A stretch of 14,740 nucleotides of DNA from DATDCY01 sp031406795 [NCBI: Candidatus Rokuibacteriota bacterium] (GTDB taxonomy: Bacteria; JAUVQV01): NCBI GenBank assembly GCA_031406795.1, contig JANOHV010000042.1, forward strand, positions 1-14,740, given 5' to 3'. Position 1 is the stretch's first letter. Each line of letters opens with the position of its first letter. The position numbers were made by a program, and so were the translations under genes. The notes beneath the pieces are model-generated. The model worked only from the letters and a program-made list of their open reading frames with translations, had not been told where the DNA came from and searched no databases. Positions 4,383 through 13,781 of the stretch are shown here, one piece after another.

Positions 4383-5147
4383 ATGTGCAATCAGCTGCAG
4401 CTGCTCAAGGACAAGGTCGCCATCGTCACCGGCTCGAGCCGGGGGATCGGTGCCGAGACGGCAAAGCTCCTCGCCGCGCACGGGGCCAAAGTCGCCGTGA
4501 ACTTCAACGCCAGCCGCGAGCGAGCCGAGCAGGTGCTGGCCGAGATCCGGATGAAGGACGGCGAGGGGATCGTCGTGCAGGCGGACGTCACCGTGCGCGA
4601 GCAGGTCGACGCGCTGGCGCGCGAGGTGCAGGAGAAGCTCGGGCCGGTGGACATCCTGGTGAACAACGCGGCGATCTCGTTCCCGGTGGTGCCCTTCGCC
4701 GAGTACCGCTGGGAGGACTTCGAGCGCAAGCTCGTGCAGGAGATGGCGGCCTGCTTCCACCCCTGCCAGGCGGTGATCCCCGGGATGGTGCGGCGCGGGC
4801 GCGGGAGCATCGTGAACATCTCCAGCGGCCTCTCGCGCACCCCCGGGGTCGGCTACTCCTCGCACTCCGCGGCCAAGTCCGCGCTGGACGCGCTCTCGAA
4901 AAGCCTGGCGATGGAACTGGGCCCCGCCGGGATCCGCGTGAACGTCGTGGCGCCCGGGCTCACCGAGACGGACGCGACGGCCTTCATTCCGCCGCAGGTG
5001 CGCGAGATGATCGCCGGCCACACGCCGCTGCGGCGCATCGGGCGCCCCGAGGACGTGGCCGGCGCGGTGCTCTTCTGCTGCGTCGACTGGTCGGGCTTCA
5101 TGTCGGGCGCCTACCTGCCGGTCTCCGGCGGCGCTCACATGCCCTGA
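4383..5147 (+). CDS. SDR-family oxidoreductase, FabG-like, with altered catalytic residues
   Basis: A 254-residue classical short-chain dehydrogenase/reductase. The TGSSRGIG nucleotide-binding loop (16-23) and the NNAA motif (94-97) are intact, as is the C-terminal SGFMSGAYLPVSGG. In E. coli FabG the tetrad is N110, S138, Y151, K155. With the same spacing this protein has E120, S148, H161 and K165, so the catalytic Tyr is His (codon CAC) and the Asn is Glu. A Tyr is present three residues earlier (Y158) but out of register. The protein may be a reductase with unusual chemistry, a non-catalytic binding protein, or a member of a divergent SDR subgroup like the 2,4-dienoyl-CoA reductases, which also lack the canonical Tyr. 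AGGGGG lies seven bases before the ATG. It probably forms an operon with the upstream phosphofructokinase gene. The substrate is unknown; fabG should not be assumed. Confidence 0.9.
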   Translation: MCNQLQLLKDKVAIVTGSSRGIGAETAKLLAAHGAKVAVNFNASRERAEQVLAEIRMKDGEGIVVQADVTVREQVDALAREVQEKLGPVDILVNNAAISFPVVPFAEYRWEDFERKLVQEMAACFHPCQAVIPGMVRRGRGSIVNISSGLSRTPGVGYSSHSAAKSALDALSKSLAMELGPAGIRVNVVAPGLTETDATAFIPPQVREMIAGHTPLRRIGRPEDVAGAVLFCCVDWSGFMSGAYLPVSGGAHMP

Positions 5148-5153
5148 CGCACC

Positions 5154-5260
5154 CGCTAAGGCCCCACCTGCGGCGTCACGCTTCGCCACTGCGTCGCTGC
5201 GGCGTACTGCTCGTACGCCTCGCTCCTCGGGCTCGCGTTCCTTGCATCTGGGACCTTATC
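5154..5260. repeat. Dispersed inverted-repeat element, copy 1
   Basis: The ends pair as TAAGGCCCC (5157-5165) with GGGACCTTA (5250-5258), 8 of 9 positions. Inside is a perfect hairpin, GGCGTAC (5201-5207), loop TGCTC, GTACGCC (5213-5219). Bases 5192-5221 are identical to 5619-5648 in copy 2. The element starts seven bases after the SDR stop codon, so it may act as the 3' end hairpin of that transcript. No open frame in it looks real. Confidence 0.85.
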
Positions 5261-5307
5261 GGGCGCGTCAGCGTCGATAGTGCGGGAAGAAAACCCAGAG
5301 GAGAGGG

Positions 5308-5438
5308 ATGATGGCGAAGCTATACGATGTCGAGATCGAGATCGTCGAGCAGAAGGGGCGCTGCCCGAACGGGCACCAGGCCTCTGCATGGGGGCCTTCG
5401 CCGTCTACCGGGTGCGAAGGGTCGAGCGGGCTGTCTGA
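5308..5438 (+). pseudogene. Broken TIGR04076-type small protein gene
   Basis: A good ribosome site (GGAGAGGG) precedes ATG ATG at 5308-5313. The frame begins MAKLYDVEIEIVEQKGRCPNGH, the recognisable N-terminus of TIGR04076 family proteins (usually somewhat under 100 residues, with the start VEI.V.E.KG.CP.GHKVGD). Directly after GH the family-like sequence stops. In another frame, from 5382, LCMGAFAVYRV appears, resembling the later GLCLGAFA segment of the family, and it stops at TGA 5436-5438. The roughly 20 residues normally between these blocks are missing. This is best explained by an internal deletion that also shifted the frame. The original frame would run on to 5514 as an unrelated 68-residue product. 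The function of the intact family is unknown to me. Confidence 0.65.
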
Positions 5439-5460
5439 ACCGAGGTGCGGCCGTGTCAAA

Positions 5461-5476
5461 CGTGACGAGAGTCACA
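5461..5476. promoter_or_regulatory. CRP/FNR-family-like palindrome
   Basis: CGTGA, six bases, then TCACA fits the TGTGA-N6-TCACA operator pattern of CRP-family regulators with one mismatch. The same bases also form a GTGAC-gaga-GTCAC hairpin. No clear promoter or intact gene lies next to it, so it may be a leftover of the broken upstream gene's region or a chance palindrome. Confidence 0.3.
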
Positions 5477-5533
5477 GCAGGTGCCGGTCAGGGATTGTAG
5501 GTTGTTTCCAGTAAGAGCGAGCCCTCCTCCTGG

Positions 5534-5572
5534 CCGCCCCGCGGGTCCTGCCGACCCCGGGGCGGTTTTTTT
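5534..5572 (+). terminator. Strong Rho-independent terminator
   Basis: CCGCCCCG (5534-5541) pairs with CGGGGCGG (5558-5565), extended inward by GGGT/ACCC after a one-base bulge, and is followed directly by seven T. This is a textbook plus-strand terminator. It would end transcription through the broken TIGR04076 gene and insulate the rhomboid operon downstream. Confidence 0.88.
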
Positions 5573-5698
5573 GCAGTCCGCTGAAACAGGCCCATCTGCG
5601 GCGTTCCGCTTCGCCCTTCGTCGCTGCGGCGTACTGCTCGTACGCCTCACTCCTCAGGGCTCGCGCGCCTTGCATCCGGGCCTGTTTGAGCAGCCTGC
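5573..5698. repeat. Dispersed inverted-repeat element, copy 2 (most complete)
   Basis: The termini 5573-5593 and 5678-5698 are 21-base inverted repeats agreeing at 18 positions, with the perfect segment AAACAGGCCC/GGGCCTGTTT. The internal hairpin GGCGTAC-TGCTC-GTACGCC is at 5628-5646. The element begins immediately after the T run of the terminator. There is no coding capacity. It sits between that terminator and the rhomboid gene. Confidence 0.88.
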
Positions 5699-5741
5699 GC
5701 AGTAGCACAAGGGAACAATTATCGGTGTTACGATAGAGCAT

Positions 5742-6557
5742 ATGAGATACGGCTCCCCTTCGTACGCCGGCGCGGGCTTCGGCTTCGGGCGGCCCTGGAC
5801 TCCGGCGGTCCGGGCGTTGATCCTCGCCTGCGGCGGAATGTACCTCGCGCAACTGCTGCTGGGGCGGTCGTTCCCGATCGTCGAACTGTTCGCCCTCGAC
5901 ACGGCTCGCCCGCTCGAGCTCTGGCGCTGGGTGAGCTACGCGTTCCTCCATGGCGGTGCCTTGCACCTGATCTTCAACGCGCTGGCGATCTGGATGTTCG
6001 GATCCGAGATCGAGGAGCGTTTCGGGACGCGGCGGTTCGTCGCCCTCTGCGCGGTGACCGGCGTCGGCGCCGCGATCAGCGTCATCCTGGTCGATCTGCT
6101 GCGCGGGCGCGAAAGCCTCGTTCTCGGGGCATCGGGGATCGTCTTCGGGTTGCTGATGGCCTACGGGATCCTCTTTGCGGAACGCGTGATCACGCTGCTG
6201 GTTTTCTTCGTTCTGCCCGTGAGCATGAAGGCGAAGCACTTCGTCCTCGCCTTCGGCGCGATCGAACTTCTCTTCGGCATGGCCGGCGGGGATCGGGTCG
6301 CGCACTTCGCGCACCTCGGCGGGATGCTCTTCGGGTGGTTGATGCTCCGGGCCCCCGCCGGCTTGTCGCCTCGCGGCGGCGGCGGGCCGGGGTTGCTCGC
6401 CGTCTGGCGCGCTCGCCTCGACAACCTCAATCGGGCGCGCGACGACCGGCGCATGGACGCGTTGCTGCAGAAGGTGAACGATCGCGGGATCGGTTCGCTC
6501 ACCGAGGGAGAGAAGCAGTTCCTGCACCGGATGAGCCGGAGGAAGCGGTGGAACTGA
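5742..6557 (+). CDS. Rhomboid-family intramembrane serine protease with C-terminal DUF6576-like tail
   Basis: A 271-residue membrane protein with about six hydrophobic helices between residues 23 and 205. The serine-histidine dyad is clear: S131 in LGASGIVFG (GxSG) and H191 in HFAHLGG. The conserved HGGALHLIFN stretch gives H70, H75 and N79, which shape the oxyanion hole. Rhomboids cleave transmembrane helices within the lipid bilayer of the inner membrane. The tail after ~225 ends in MDALLQKVNDRGIGSLTEGE, the short cytosolic segment (DUF6576-like) common on bacterial rhomboids. No good Shine-Dalgarno sequence is seen before ATG 5742. The stop overlaps the next gene, a redox lipoprotein, by ten bases, suggesting coupled expression. 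The substrate is unknown; a role in maturation or quality control of the envelope proteins in the same operon is only a guess. Confidence 0.92.
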   Translation: MRYGSPSYAGAGFGFGRPWTPAVRALILACGGMYLAQLLLGRSFPIVELFALDTARPLELWRWVSYAFLHGGALHLIFNALAIWMFGSEIEERFGTRRFVALCAVTGVGAAISVILVDLLRGRESLVLGASGIVFGLLMAYGILFAERVITLLVFFVLPVSMKAKHFVLAFGAIELLFGMAGGDRVAHFAHLGGMLFGWLMLRAPAGLSPRGGGGPGLLAVWRARLDNLNRARDDRRMDALLQKVNDRGIGSLTEGEKQFLHRMSRRKRWN

Positions 6558-7705
6558 GCGCCCGCGGCCGCGCGGTGCGCTCGCGCTGCCTGCTGCTTCT
6601 GGTTCTTGCGCAGGCGCTGGCGGCCTGCGGGAAACAGCCGGAATCGTCGCCGCCGCAGTCCGCACCGCCCGGGACGATCCGCGAGCTGACCGATGGCGCC
6701 AGCGTCACGACCGACGTCAACGCCCGCGCGCCCGCCTTCGCCCGGACCGACTTCGAAGGCGCGCTGGTACGCACTCAGGACGCCATCGGGTCCAAGGTCC
6801 TGCTGCTGGACTTCTGGTCGGTCTTCTGCCAGTCCTGCCTGCAGGAGATGCCCTTTCTTCAGGAACTGCACCGGCGCCACGCCGCCGAGGGTCTGCAGAT
6901 CGTCGGGGTGAACACCGACTTCTTTCCGAAGGAGCGCATCGTCAAATTCATGGAGAAGACGGGCCTGGCCCTGCCGTACCCGCTGATCCATGACCGCGAC
7001 CAGAGCCTGAGCAAACTCTTCTCGGTCGAGGCGCTCCCGGTGCTCGTGCTCATCGACTCGTCGGGCTGGATCCGCATGGTGCACCTGGGCTACAAGCCCG
7101 GCGACGAGCGCGAGATCGAGCGGCGCGTCAGCAAGGCCTGCGGCCGCATCAAGGAGACCGTCGTCACCCTGCAGCCGGTCGGCGGCACGACGGCTTTTTC
7201 GCCGCCGGAGAAGGGGCGGGCGCCGGCGGCGGCGGGGACGATGGTCGATGGGTTTGTTGCGCTCGACGGCGAGGGGCGCGAAGCGCCGTTTGCCGGTTGG
7301 CGCGCCGGCTCGCCGGTCGTGGTCTTCTTCTGGTCGCTGTTCTGCCAGCCTTGCCGGGAAGAATTCGGCCGGCTGGAGAATCTCGCGGCGCACCCGCCGG
7401 TGCCGGGGCTCAAAGTGCTCGCGGTGAATGTCGATTCGCCGAAGCTGCGGCCGCAGGCGGCGCGCTTTCTCTCGGCTCGGGGCGACAGCATCACCGGGGT
7501 TTTCGACCGCGAACAGGGGGGCGGCCGCTACGAGATCGCGGGGCTCTTCGGGGTGAGTTCGACCCCGAGCACGTTCCTTGTCGGGGCGGACGGCACGGTG
7601 CGCGCAGCCTGGTCGGGGGAGGTCGACGAGGCGACGCTCGCCGCGGGCATCCGGGCGAACCTGGCGCCCGGCGGCGGCGGCGGAAGCACGGGGGCGAGGC
7701 GATGA
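6548..7705 (+). CDS. Predicted lipoprotein with two tandem thioredoxin-like (TlpA/ResA) domains
   Basis: With the GTG start at 6548, preceded by GGAGGA at 6538-6543, the protein is 385 residues. A short basic and hydrophobic leader ends in the lipobox LAAC (lipidated Cys27), so it is probably anchored on the periplasmic face. GTG 6575 is an alternative start that keeps the lipobox. Domain 1 (about 55-200) has CQSC at 94-97 and cis-Pro164; domain 2 (about 230-372) has CQPC at 266-269 and cis-Pro340. Both read FWS-x-FCQ-x-C, the TlpA/ResA style of thiol-disulfide reductase. Two redox-active modules in one chain suggest internal electron transfer or duplicate reduction of partner disulfides, perhaps cytochrome maturation. 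Its stop overlaps the following DUF3179 gene as ATGA. No membrane electron donor (CcdA/DsbD) is in the window. Confidence 0.9.
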   Translation: MELSARGRAVRSRCLLLLVLAQALAACGKQPESSPPQSAPPGTIRELTDGASVTTDVNARAPAFARTDFEGALVRTQDAIGSKVLLLDFWSVFCQSCLQEMPFLQELHRRHAAEGLQIVGVNTDFFPKERIVKFMEKTGLALPYPLIHDRDQSLSKLFSVEALPVLVLIDSSGWIRMVHLGYKPGDEREIERRVSKACGRIKETVVTLQPVGGTTAFSPPEKGRAPAAAGTMVDGFVALDGEGREAPFAGWRAGSPVVVFFWSLFCQPCREEFGRLENLAAHPPVPGLKVLAVNVDSPKLRPQAARFLSARGDSITGVFDREQGGGRYEIAGLFGVSSTPSTFLVGADGTVRAAWSGEVDEATLAAGIRANLAPGGGGGSTGARR

Positions 7706-8187
7706 ACCGGGCGGTCCTTGGCACGCTTGCCGGACTCCTTGCGCTGTTGGCGCTTCCTGCAAGTCAAGTCATGGGGCAGGCTGCCGCTCCCGCTGACCCC
7801 GTCGCTCCGGCCGCCGGGGATGCCGTGGTCGGGCTCTCCGTCCGGGGCGCCAACCGCGCCTATCCGACGGCGCTTTTTACCGCACGGCGGGTGGTGAACG
7901 ACGTGGTCGGCGACCTGGAGGTGGCGGTCTTCCACGACCCGGAGCGCGGTTTGAGCGCGGCCTGGTTTCGCCTGGTGCGCGGCGAGCCGATCGAATTCTC
8001 CGGCTCGGCCGCCGGCACCGTGGGGGATGACCTGACAACCATCACGCGCTGGGACCTGGCGACCGGCGTGGCCGTGGGGGGGAACCTGCAAGGGCAGCGG
8101 CTGATCCCGCTGGCCGTCTCGACGACGACGTGGGCCAGCTGGGCCGCAACCCACCCGAACGCCCAACTCTTCCGCGAAGGCCGCTGA
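7702..8187 (+). CDS. Exported DUF3179-like protein
   Basis: A 161-residue protein with a signal peptide (MNRAVLGTLAGLLALLALP..., cleavage expected near residue 25). The mature part follows the DUF3179 pattern: GANRAYPTALFTARRVVNDVVG (49-70), then GSAAGTV, TRWDLATGVAVGGNLQGQRL (115-134) and TTTWASWAATHPNAQLF near the end. In many family members the VVND-G segment is followed by a strand with CPLCGTA; here the corresponding stretch EVAVFHDPERG has no Cys at all. The family's function is not known to me. It is coupled to the tandem-thioredoxin lipoprotein by an ATGA overlap, so both likely act together in the envelope. The final codons GGC CGC TGA are the first bases of a dispersed repeat element, so the natural C-terminus may have been altered. 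Confidence 0.8.
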   Translation: MNRAVLGTLAGLLALLALPASQVMGQAAAPADPVAPAAGDAVVGLSVRGANRAYPTALFTARRVVNDVVGDLEVAVFHDPERGLSAAWFRLVRGEPIEFSGSAAGTVGDDLTTITRWDLATGVAVGGNLQGQRLIPLAVSTTTWASWAATHPNAQLFREGR

Positions 8188-8297
8188 AAAGGGCCCACCT
8201 GCGGCGTTGGACTCCTCCCGGCTCACTGCGGCGGGCACCAGCCCGCCTCATTCGCCAGATCGGGGTCCACCTTGCATCTGAACCCTTTTGAGCAGCC
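8179..8297. repeat. Dispersed inverted-repeat element, copy 3
   Basis: The left end GGCCGCTGAAAAGGGCCC (8179-8196) overlaps the stop codon of the DUF3179 gene. CTGAAAAGGG (8184-8193) pairs with CCCTTTTGAG (8283-8292) at 9 of 10 positions. The inner hairpin is GGCGGGC (8230-8236), loop ACCA, GCCCGCC (8241-8247). It replaces the GGCGTAC/GTACGCC stem of copies 1 and 2 while keeping full pairing. CCTGCGGCG near the left end and CCTTGCATC near the right end are shared with the other copies. Confidence 0.85.
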
Positions 8298-8483
8298 TCT
8301 CCGTCACCGTAACGGCGGAGGGGTGGCGCGGAGGGGAGGTCTCCAGCGGCGGAACGAAGTGAGTGCCCGCTCGGGGGGCATAAACACGATGGAGGTCCGC
8401 AGCGTCCACCCCAGCGGCGGGGTGGCAGGCAGGACCCCGCAGCCAGCACGGGAATGAAGGCTTCTCCGAGGAGCGGCCCCGCG
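8298..8483. other. Gene-free, highly structured interval
   Basis: No reading frame here looks like a protein. CCACCCC (8406-8412) can pair perfectly with GGGGTGG at 8320-8326, closing a large stem extended by CGCGGA/TCCGC, or with GGGGTGG at 8419-8425 across a six-base loop. The two pairings exclude each other. AGCGG...CCGCT (8345-8371) forms a further inner stem. It could be a small RNA, the 3' part of the minus-strand gene's transcript, or part of a larger repeat; the segment at 8297-8316 recurs at 500-519. Confidence 0.5.
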
Positions 8484-8750
8484 TCACCGGGAGCCGGACG
8501 AGTGCTCCTCCTTGACCTTGCGGAAGAGCTGGTCGAACTCCCCCTGCCGATTCTTCTCGCGCTCCCGTCCGTGCTCGACGACCGCTTCGCGCCGGGCCTT
8601 TTCCTGTTCGAGTTCTCGCAGCCGCTCGCCGAGGAAGTCCGCGCCCGGTTTGCCTTTGACCTCCTCACGGTGCCGCAGCACGGTCCCGGTGGCGGCGTCG
8701 ATCTCCATGGCCTCGCTGCACTTCGGGCACTTCACGCTGATCACGGCCAT
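8484..8750 (-). CDS. Small conserved-looking protein with N-terminal CPKC and charged helical tail
   Basis: An 88-residue protein starting at ATG 8748-8750 with an excellent ribosome site (AGGAGG five bases upstream on the minus strand). Residues C8-P-K-C11 look like half of a zinc ribbon; no second Cys pair follows, so metal binding would need a dimer or a partner. From about residue 35 the chain is rich in Glu, Arg and Lys (ERLRELEQEKARREAVVEHG...) and should be a long amphipathic helix or coiled coil. I recognise it only as a hypothetical protein of the kind seen in Geobacter-like genomes, with no known function. It is divergent from rubrerythrin across a 168-base gap. Confidence 0.75.
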   Translation of the reverse strand: MAVISVKCPKCSEAMEIDAATGTVLRHREEVKGKPGADFLGERLRELEQEKARREAVVEHGREREKNRQGEFDQLFRKVKEEHSSGSR

Positions 8751-12342: not shown

Positions 12343-13350
12343 CTATAAGAGGGCGGCGCGCTCCGCCATCTGTTCGTACGGGATGAGTCTGCGGTAATCG
12401 ACGAGCCCGGCGAGCGCCCCGGTCTGGCGCACGCGCATTCCCGTCTCCTCCAGGATCGCCACCGGGTTCAGGCCGCCCATCACGACGACGCCGAGGCGCC
12501 CTTCGCTGACCGGGATATCGAACAGCGGCCGGCCGGGCCAGCCGACATCGATCACGACGCCGAGCCCCGCCTCCTCCATGCTGCGCGCGAGGCCAAGTAC
12601 GCGCTCGCGGCTGTTGCCCGGCACCTCGCGGAAGCTTGCGCCGACCAGGCCGTTGCCGGTTTCGACGGCGCCCTTGTAGTCGGTCATGCCGCTTCTGATG
12701 AAGACCTCGAGCGGGTCGAGCGTCGTGCCTTCGTAGTGGATCAGCTCGACGAAACGCGTCGGCTTGAGCGCACGCAGTTCGAGCAGGCCGCCGAAGCGCG
12801 ACGAGACCGGGATGCCGTGGCGCAGCAGGACACCGTTGAAGGTGATGGAGCAGACCGTGCCGACGCCGACCTTCCCGTCGGGGACCCCGACATCGCCGAC
12901 GCGCTCCCCCGGTCCGAACAGAGCCGCGAGCCGGCCGACGCCGAGCCGTGCGGCGAAGACCCTCGCCATCTTCGGGATCGCCTCGGGGAGCTGATCTCGC
13001 TCGAGGAGGCTGACGTTGACGACGACGGTACCTTCGCGCCGGCCGAGGTCGAAGTCCATGTTGTACGTCAGCTGGTCGATCTTCGCGGCGAGGTAGCCAA
13101 CTTTCTCGAAGGCGCGCGCGTTCGAGAGCTCACGCGCGCCCGTTTCGGTGATGCGCCGCCCCTGCTTACCGAGGTTCTCGGTCAGCCCGCTGGCGTCGAG
13201 CGCCTGCAGATGAAAGCGCACGGTTCGCTCGCTCAGGTCGTGGCCGGCGGCGAGAAGCCGCGTGGCAAGTTCCTGGCTGCCGTGAGGGCGACGGTCTTCA
13301 TGAAGAATCTTCAGGATCGCCAGACGTTTCTTTTCGACCTTGTCGCTCAT
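12343..13350 (-). CDS. nrpR: NrpR-family (DUF128) transcriptional regulator
   Basis: A 335-residue protein. Residues 1-75 form a winged helix (KKRLAILKILHEDRRPHGSQELATRLL, then LSERTVRFHLQALDASGLTENLGKQGRRITETG). The rest is a single DUF128/NrpR effector domain, including GTVVVNVSLLERD, GVGTVCSITFNGVLLRHGIPVSSRFGGLLEL and FDIPVSEGRLGVVVMGGLNPVAILEE. In methanogens NrpR represses nitrogen-assimilation genes and is released by 2-oxoglutarate. The single-domain form here is like bacterial members, whose targets are less well known. It is divergent from a glutamate synthase-like gene, which supports a nitrogen role. A 14-bp palindrome lies 47-60 bases upstream of its start, suggesting autoregulation. 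TAGAAT (13360-13365, read on minus) is a possible -10, which would leave a nearly leaderless transcript; no strong ribosome site is visible. Confidence 0.9.
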   Translation of the reverse strand: MSDKVEKKRLAILKILHEDRRPHGSQELATRLLAAGHDLSERTVRFHLQALDASGLTENLGKQGRRITETGARELSNARAFEKVGYLAAKIDQLTYNMDFDLGRREGTVVVNVSLLERDQLPEAIPKMARVFAARLGVGRLAALFGPGERVGDVGVPDGKVGVGTVCSITFNGVLLRHGIPVSSRFGGLLELRALKPTRFVELIHYEGTTLDPLEVFIRSGMTDYKGAVETGNGLVGASFREVPGNSRERVLGLARSMEEAGLGVVIDVGWPGRPLFDIPVSEGRLGVVVMGGLNPVAILEETGMRVRQTGALAGLVDYRRLIPYEQMAERAALL

Positions 13351-13410: not shown

Positions 13411-13590
13411 ATGGCCCTGCCAGGAAACAGCTGGCGGAAACTGCTTGGCCACGCGCAAGCACCAGCTTCTACCGCGTTCGATCACCCCGTGTCAAACCGG
13501 AATTCGGTGGTTTCCCGGCAAACGCCGGCCGGGGAGTCAGTCGTCAATGAGCCGGGGAAGTAATCCTTCAGTGAAGCGCGGAAACTCTTT
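13411..13590. other. Non-coding stretch of the nrpR/glutamate synthase control region
   Basis: I see no gene here. It contains small palindromes: GCCAG...CTGGC (13419-13435), ACCGGAATTCGGT nested in AAACC...GGTTT, and CCGGC-AAAC-GCCGG (13515-13528). None matches a motif I can name. Confidence 0.5.
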
Positions 13591-13671
13591 CCGTTCGTGG
13601 TGAGCTTGTCGAACCATGAACGGAAATCTTCCCTATCCACAAGCGCCCTTCGACAGGCTCAGGGCGAACGG
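13591..13671. repeat. REP-like inverted repeat pair
   Basis: The left unit (13591-13623) reads CCGTTCG, TGGTGAGCTTGTCGAACCA, then TGAACGG. The right unit (13646-13671) is its inverted relative; its reverse complement reads CCGTTCG then CCCTGAGCCTGTCGAAGGG. Each unit has a short variable stem (TGG/CCA or CCC/GGG) around a shared TGAGCyTGTCGAA loop. I recall very similar sequences scattered through many proteobacterial genomes. Confidence 0.75.
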
Positions 13672-13714: not shown

Positions 13715-13743
13715 GGAAGCGCCACCGGTGCTCGTGGCCATTG

Positions 13744-13781
13744 TTGGCAAAACTGCCAACAGCACTTGGCAGTTTTGCCGC
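13744..13781. promoter_or_regulatory. Paired palindromic operators upstream of the glutamate synthase-like gene
   Basis: Site 1 is TTGGCA-AAAC-TGCCAA (13744-13759, perfect). Site 2 is TTGGCA-GTTT-TGCCGC (13766-13781). The centres are 22 bases apart, about two helical turns. Site 2 is nearly the reverse complement of site 1, so 13746-13759 and 13766-13779 also form a perfect 14-bp inverted repeat around a 6-base loop. The divergent nrpR gene makes NrpR the obvious candidate binder. Confidence 0.6.

Follow-up and report, generated by a model that had tools for sequence, protein, structure and literature searches.

Folded repeats recur along a stretch of 14,740 nucleotides from a Candidatus Rokuibacteriota bacterium (DATDCY01 sp031406795, contig JANOHV010000042.1), which was analysed as a whole and is referred to here as the window. 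These repeats are very probably decayed copies of a miniature inverted-repeat transposable element (MITE), a short non-autonomous transposon, which in this case carries a conserved folded core. The evidence comes largely from relatives of the window copies, in which terminal repeats, target-site duplications, a high copy number and the identity of the unit ends with those of an insertion sequence in the same genome have been demonstrated. The family was traced through distant relatives because the closest relatives of the ferredoxin-oxidoreductase-like protein encoded in the window reach a best identity of only 63% among the 80 loci kept. An alignment of 24 copies (A2), the window's three included, yielded the covariance model R1; a hold-out model, R2, was built from 27 sequences, none of them from the window, and is not fully independent since its members were collected with R1. 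The window holds the following features of the family, with bit scores from the two models:

5139 to 5269, minus strand: copy 1 of the folded element (R1 91.1 bits, R2 84.9 bits); its arms reach 5144–5271.
5567 to 5697, minus strand: copy 2 of the folded element, the best preserved of the three (R1 133.5 bits, R2 132.4 bits).
8170 to 8299, minus strand: copy 3 of the folded element (R1 98.9 bits, R2 85.6 bits).
468 to 520 (approximate), minus strand: probable core-less remnant with its arms retained (repeat D13, 83% over 35 nt; sequence).
5201 to 5219, unstranded: apical hairpin of copy 1, GGCGTAC-tgctc-GTACGCC, arms 5201–5207 and 5213–5219 (sequence).
5628 to 5646, unstranded: apical hairpin of copy 2, GGCGTAC-tgctc-GTACGCC, arms 5628–5634 and 5640–5646 (sequence).
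8230 to 8248, unstranded: apical hairpin of copy 3, GGCGGGC-accag-GCCCGCC, arms 8230–8236 and 8242–8248 (sequence).

The three copies lie where a sequence-only reading of this DNA had placed them and pair as it described, and each is recovered by the window-free model R2. The apical hairpins are likewise those it had named, GGCGTAC with GTACGCC in copies 1 and 2 and GGCGGGC with GCCCGCC in copy 3; the two compensated pairs of copy 3 correspond to pairs 59/70 and 60/69 of A2. Its outer arms also pair as it held (TAAGG 5157–5161 with CCTTA 5254–5258 in copy 1, AAACAGGCCC 5584–5593 with GGGCCTGTTT 5678–5687 in copy 2, and AAAAGGG 8187–8193 with CCCTTTT 8283–8289 in copy 3), but the arm of copy 1 proved longer than it had noted, extending over 18 positions rather than 5 (CTGACGCACCCGCTAAGG 5144–5161 and CCTTATCGGGCGCGTCAG 5254–5271), 16 of which are complementary. 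Two upstream genes take their stop codons from these arms: the TGA of an SDR-like open reading frame (ORF) at 4383–5147 is supplied by the arm of copy 1, and that of the ORF ending at 8187 by the arm GCTGAAAAGGG of copy 3. The remnant near 468–520 can be read as the arms gctgaaaagggccc and ccctcttgttcag, and carries gctgaaaagggcccgtcaccctcttgttcag together with the flank CTCTCCGNNACCGTAACGGC, which it has in common with copy 3 as repeat D13; the full model R1 did not match it. No ORF of the window looks like a transposase by reading, as had been remarked before, no family search having been made on these ORFs.

We read the element on the minus strand because this strand folds better than the plus strand. 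The z-scores of the DNA fold for copies 1, 2 and 3 are -3.65, -5.74 and -4.01 on the minus strand, compared with the weaker values of -2.21, -3.57 and -2.61 on the plus strand. None of 200 dinucleotide shuffles reaches the minus-strand energies, while 6, 0 and 3, respectively, reach those of the plus strand. R1 also gives weak plus-strand matches to copy 2 (28.1 bits) and copy 3 (22.5 bits), as is expected of near-palindromes.

The three copies belong to a much larger family. A strict core pattern found 7, 5, 11 and 7 copies in four of 8 genomes and none in the other four, with no match of the reversed control in any of them. R1 matched 29 of 50 named genomes (50 of the 80 protein loci), with a maximum of at least 64 copies per genome; these counts are lower bounds, 68 candidates having been scored in each. 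In one phylum sample, 118 of 297 genomes were matched with 11 candidates scored per genome. Of 58 genomes from an order to which a Geobacteraceae bacterium belongs, 35 were matched, which bears out the likeness to repeats of Geobacter-like genomes that had been suggested for the window. No match was obtained in 14 genomes of Zixibacteriota. Dozens of copies per genome are present in many Desulfobacterota- and Geobacter-kind bacteria.

The architecture of the mobile unit is apparent in 60 copies taken with their flanks from five genomes. The palindrome is only part of this unit: on the element strand it is preceded by a second, similar arm (A), which together with the right arm forms the outermost ends, and the inner arm (B) is the pairing partner of the right arm. 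Read in order, an intact unit consists of left terminal repeat A, a short spacer, inner arm B, a core made up of a middle helix and the apical hairpin GGCGTAC...GTACGCC, and the right terminal repeat; some copies, among them L161 and L163, have no A. Among 76 copies from relatives, 66 had both ends identified, and 64 of these 66 units measure 150–156 bp. Beyond the unit ends the flanks repeat. For units of class i the duplications are 6 bp long (e.g., ATATTT, AAATGT, AATTAG, AAACTT and AGTCTT): both ends were found at 43 of 50 loci, seven being missed, and the 6-bp flanks are identical at 31 of the 43 and agree at five or more positions at 35 (81%), whereas flanks compared between copies agree at a mean of 3.08 of six positions and reach five or more in 9.5% of comparisons. 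Four of five loci were usable in genome G002, two with exact flanks and three at 5/6 or better (none between copies), and nine of 11 in G003, three exact and five at 5/6 or better (1.4% between copies). Units of class ii, found in G034, have IS5-like ends; all ten were usable and six are exact over a 4-bp YTAR-like duplication. The terminal repeat occurs 91 + 93 (184) times in G025 and 124 + 133 (257) times in G029, with no occurrence of its reversed control, and the same ends also bound inserts or other interiors in these genomes. Terminal inverted repeats and target-site duplications in the relatives thus substantiate the MITE-like foldback mobility that the sequence-only reading had suggested.

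The family also reaches contigs filed as viral: the terminal-repeat pattern gave five loci in IMG/VR, with the core present in three (L286, L287 and L288), and one core-bearing locus has the near-matching 6-bp flanks AATCAT and AGTCAT. Two exact element patterns had no match (0 and 0) in viral contigs, nor did a BLAST search of the class i unit against plasmids and phages return any. At L225 and L262, class i ends surround different interiors, so that several MITE types are associated with one set of ends. Elongated or composite core units occur in G029 (L221–L224 and L226–L229), some with insertions and several closely alike, and copy L193 of the same genome is flanked by directly repeated sequence of about 14 bases (AAGGACGTATATGA), not of 6.

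A candidate partner for the class i units was found in G025 through repeated sequence at contig ends. The repeated element in question ends in GACTTTTTACGAGTCCATCA, which is complementary to the left end of the unit at 20 of 20 positions, and 15 longer matches in this genome, at 98–100% identity, share the terminal 20 bases of the MITE and run into the end of a protein, P0001. Thirteen of the 15 lie at a contig end or within 61 bases of one, the remaining two being on contigs C84 and C65. P0001 is 51% identical over 55 amino acids to an ORF of G089, whose element has 23-bp perfect terminal repeats and the flanks AACCTT and AAGCTT. The G089 gene is in two pieces, each of which was searched apart, and gave matches to DDE_Tnp_1_6 (1.4e-16) and to IS1182 (NF033551, 5.8e-41), the latter at 140.9 bits and hence below the cut-off of 270. 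The putative identity of P0001 as a transposase rests on this relative and on the common ends. For class ii, a transposase of G034 is assigned to IS5 at 262.8 bits, above the cut-off of 140, and is adjoined by the 15-base end CAGGCTGCTGAAAAA, preceded by TTAG, with one end seen. By eye, no folded core was apparent in the IS1182 and IS5 stretches examined. The 56-residue P0001 query, which finds near relatives only, gave one irrelevant weak match in plasmids and none in viral contigs. Contigs C19, C22, C39, C56, C91, C45, C51, C64, C72 and C78 of G025 begin or end within identical copies of the partner element, and because contigs break inside such copies, elements of this kind are easily missed in binned genomes.

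Compensated pairing extends far beyond the three copies in which it had been noticed. In A2, 91.1% of cells pair, shuffles giving 80.6%, and changes on both sides affect 24 of 42 pairs, compared with 12.8 in shuffles. A larger alignment, A3, comprises 93 rows from 90 sources, two rows being antisense matches of the same places and 88 being distinct. Here, 93.1% of cells pair (76.6% in shuffles), both-side changes are seen in 36 of 42 pairs (22.9) and 521 cells (120.8), and pairing falls to 35–42% when the partner is shifted by one to three columns; A3 was fitted to the structure of R1 and leans towards it, and the shuffles ignore kinship. The signal includes the inner helices, which show both-side changes in 5/5, 1/1 and 8/10 pairs. 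Seven positions are occupied by G-A mismatches, which, with the two antisense rows dropped, are kept in 78, 77, 82, 88, 94, 89 and 98% of 88–90 sequences, and the eight tabulated pairs adjoining them are paired in 92–99% while their letters vary.

Several observations weigh against the window repeats being MITE copies with a conserved folded core. Nowhere was an intact transposase found between a pair of matching ends, the G025 element being cut by contig ends, the G089 gene split and the G034 transposase seen with a single end. P0001 itself matched no transposase family, giving one weak unrelated match each in Pfam and NCBIfam, and it occurs in one of 8 genomes of the order and three of 395 of the phylum, far more rarely than carriers of the MITE; outside the P0001 carriers, other transposases must serve or movement must be long past. 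A PF01609 gene was rejected as the class i partner, with none of 22 loci in 8 genomes having class i ends on both sides. The class ii duplications are weak evidence, as the YTAR target by itself gives 50% between-copy agreement at 3/4 or better. In the window copies, target-site duplications and clear terminal repeats were unreadable by eye, and these copies are assigned to the family by homology of the core only. Lastly, a proposed core helix, GGCG/CGCC (A3 columns 33–36 with 170–173), contains no compensated pair and is paired in 78.9% of cells.

Matched changes could also arise without any selection, if the arms of a palindrome were rewritten from each other at replication by template switching, and we allow this a modest chance of being the explanation. 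Among 60 copies, 20 have two or more changes in one outer arm, and in five of these (L161, L201, L204, L209 and L215) several bases of one arm read as changed to agree with the other arm; most of the remaining ones have one-arm changes without matching, or shifts in the ungapped comparison. Both the pairing of the G-A positions in 1–15% of sequences and the Watson–Crick pairs that G003 has in place of the second tandem G-A are in keeping with such rewriting. However, template switching should erase mismatches, and the seven G-A positions persist in no less than 77% and up to 98% of sequences; the both-side changes of the inner helices also speak against it. Arm rewriting may nevertheless explain part of the outer-arm signal. 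We think that the stem covariation has three mixed causes, namely terminal repeats that match each other and the transposase, arm copying, and a selected fold. The outer-arm component would derive partly from arm-to-arm copying and from ends tracking their transposases, whereas a specific fold of the core is probably selected, because arm copying and end matching explain poorly the covarying inner helices and the persisting mismatches. The earlier claim, that compensated changes reveal selection on structure, was too strong for the outer arms, where some changes look like arm copying and terminal repeats have to agree with one another in any case; it stands on better ground in the inner core, with its mostly covarying helices and mostly retained G-A mismatches.

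A second alternative, which we consider unlikely, is a cis-acting structured RNA such as a riboswitch, an attenuator or a processed small RNA, transcribed with its neighbours and selected for its fold as RNA. The strong covariation, the mostly kept non-canonical G-A pairs and the confinement of the stronger fold to one strand would all suit such an RNA, and Aklujkar et al. labelled 24 copies in Geobacter metallireducens as predicted short RNA elements (PMC2700814). The genomic context argues otherwise. With ORFs called mechanically, 58 of 60 copies are not contained in an ORF of at least 100 amino acids, and their orientation relative to the upstream gene is balanced, at 29 against 28 (n = 57); of the strict copies, the 18 free of overlap with a called ORF divide 11 against 7, and 12 others do overlap one, often a short one. 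The duplicated target sites and insertion-sequence ends are also at odds with an RNA of this kind. At the gathering threshold, Rfam recognised nothing in the window, and with E values allowed up to 1 across 19 sources its three weak matches all lie outside the element.

It is more doubtful still that the elements are bidirectional transcription terminators placed at gene ends, with a stem bearing A5 and T5 at its foot. Many copies do have the outer arm AAAAAGNCC...GGNCTTTTT, and 21 gene 3' ends fall within elements among the loci examined, but stops inside the element are equally expected when an insertion cuts a gene end. Convergent gene pairs, moreover, host only 4 of 57 copies, compared with 40 between tandem and 13 between divergent genes (one further copy was left unassigned). 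A simple scan found no terminator-like site inside the window copies, one at 5545–5565 just preceding copy 2, and the arms of these copies are without a five-T run. Taken together, the even orientation and the few convergent pairs speak against a directional RNA switch as well as a dedicated terminator.

The sequence-only reading put forward a variant in which REP/RAYT-type palindromes are mobilised as single-stranded DNA by a Y1 (IS200/IS605-like) transposase. This variant is largely refuted and can hardly be maintained: the element is indeed a high-copy foldback sequence, and seven of the 8 genomes searched have Y1_Tnp genes, but no copy was found at any of the 20 Y1_Tnp loci that were searched (40 places listed), such genes are present in genomes without strict-pattern copies and absent from G002, which has five of these and at least 43 copies by R1, the unit measures about 150 bp compared with 20–40 bp for REPs (PMC3733652), and both the 6-bp duplications and the match of the ends to DDE insertion sequences indicate a DDE enzyme.

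For a MITE with a folded core, the following mechanism can be envisaged. A transposase of the DDE type, related to IS1182 or IS5, would act in trans, cutting and pasting the unit at its ends. With its right terminal repeat paired to B, the whole unit could fold, whether as single-stranded DNA or as RNA, into a single long and imperfect hairpin, and two forces would bear on this fold. The first would be an occasional rewriting of the arms from each other, as the multi-base changes suggest. The second would be selection on the shape of the core, which is suggested because helices covary while specific G-A mismatches mostly persist. The core might serve by aiding mobility or by making insertions harmless to neighbouring transcripts.

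With somewhat more doubt than belief, we further suggest that the core is an independent selected fold module, consisting of the tandem G-A motifs and the apical hairpin, which is passed among units of at least two transposase families. If this were true, passage between units would have let the core colonise a large share of the Desulfobacterota and the relatives of Geobacter, and success would require the fold as well as the ends, through recognition by a host factor of single-stranded DNA or RNA or through silencing of the harm done by insertion. In that case the element would be parasitic on transposases through its structure, and more than a simple deletion derivative.

It is usually by their ends that MITEs are defined, their interiors being poorly conserved. 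Here conservation lies in the interior, even between distant hosts: its helices covary and its mismatches are mostly retained, whereas ends and target duplications vary. Scattered 'short RNA' and 'repeat' annotations would become one mobile family with a testable partner enzyme, and hundreds of natural sequences are at hand for asking why a transposon keeps a fold. A caution also follows, in that covariation of foldback elements may stem from arm-to-arm copying as well as from selection.

Elsewhere in the window, a different repeat is present at 13587–13671 as the inverted pair TTCGTGGTGAGCTTGTCGAACCATGAACGG and TTCGACAGGCTCAGGGCGAACGG, and its GAGCTTGTCGAACCA motif is also found in the flank of copy L200 in G019. 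The palindromes TTGGCAAAACTGCCAA and TTGGCAGTTTTGCC at 13738–13780 lie upstream of an ORF running off the window; they may be an operator serving the regulator-like ORF at 12343–13350, which is encoded divergently and which we take to be NrpR-like. Between copy 3 and a small minus-strand ORF (8484–8750), the GC-rich stretch 8317–8480 has no evident gene and no Rfam match.

A search mostly outside the subscription literature found no published account that presents the unit as a MITE or that covers its spread or covariation; querying the literature with the element sequences themselves returned primer-like noise, and a search of PMC2267715 found no mention of the hosts of the family. The closest precedent is that of Aklujkar et al. 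(2009), who described 24 intergenic 'predicted short RNA elements' in Geobacter metallireducens with relatives in three other genomes (PMC2700814). Like the present family, these are intergenic and multicopy, and the apical hairpin GGCGTAGCAGCGCTACGCC of L343, L357 and L358, when reverse-complemented, gives their central palindrome GRCGTAGCGCTGCTACGCC. With up to 98 occurrences per genome, the GRCGTAGCGCTGCTACGCC motif was detected in 31 of the order's 58 genomes, and its reversed control in none; among the matches listed, at least 10 of its places fall inside R1 matches, and many listed places fall outside the listed R1 matches. The 98 exact copies, the most in the sample, are those of G472, from the order of G006, in which R1 counts 11 (58 candidates scored). 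The window stems GGCGTAC and GGCGGGC differ from this centre, which is met by some copies of the Geobacter order. The 2009 elements were described as RNA, and the available portion of that paper does not mention terminal repeats or target duplications (PMC2700814). Judging from the central motif, they look like an earlier sighting of the Geobacter branch of the family. The earlier statement that no function had been described still holds, although this branch itself had been on record as a predicted short RNA.

Chunjie of Geobacter uraniireducens (Chen et al. 2008) is a high-copy MITE with terminal and direct repeats (PMC10969869). Compared by description only, it shares with the present family a high copy number and a link to Geobacter, and at 178–235 bp it is longer than the unit of about 150 bp described here (PMC10969869). 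REP/RAYT systems are set apart by a palindrome of 20–40 bp, by a GTAG or CGTC tag and by a RAYT gene flanked by REPs. A likeness in form is offered by ERIC and Correia (NEMIS) elements, which are long intergenic foldback units of MITE-like character that can be read into transcripts and that duplicate a TA target. They differ, by description, in their hosts and in this TA duplication, compared with 6 bp or YTAR here. The terminal repeats themselves lead to two insertion-sequence families, those of class i units being common to IS1182 and those of class ii units to IS5, both of which, unlike the units, encode a transposase.

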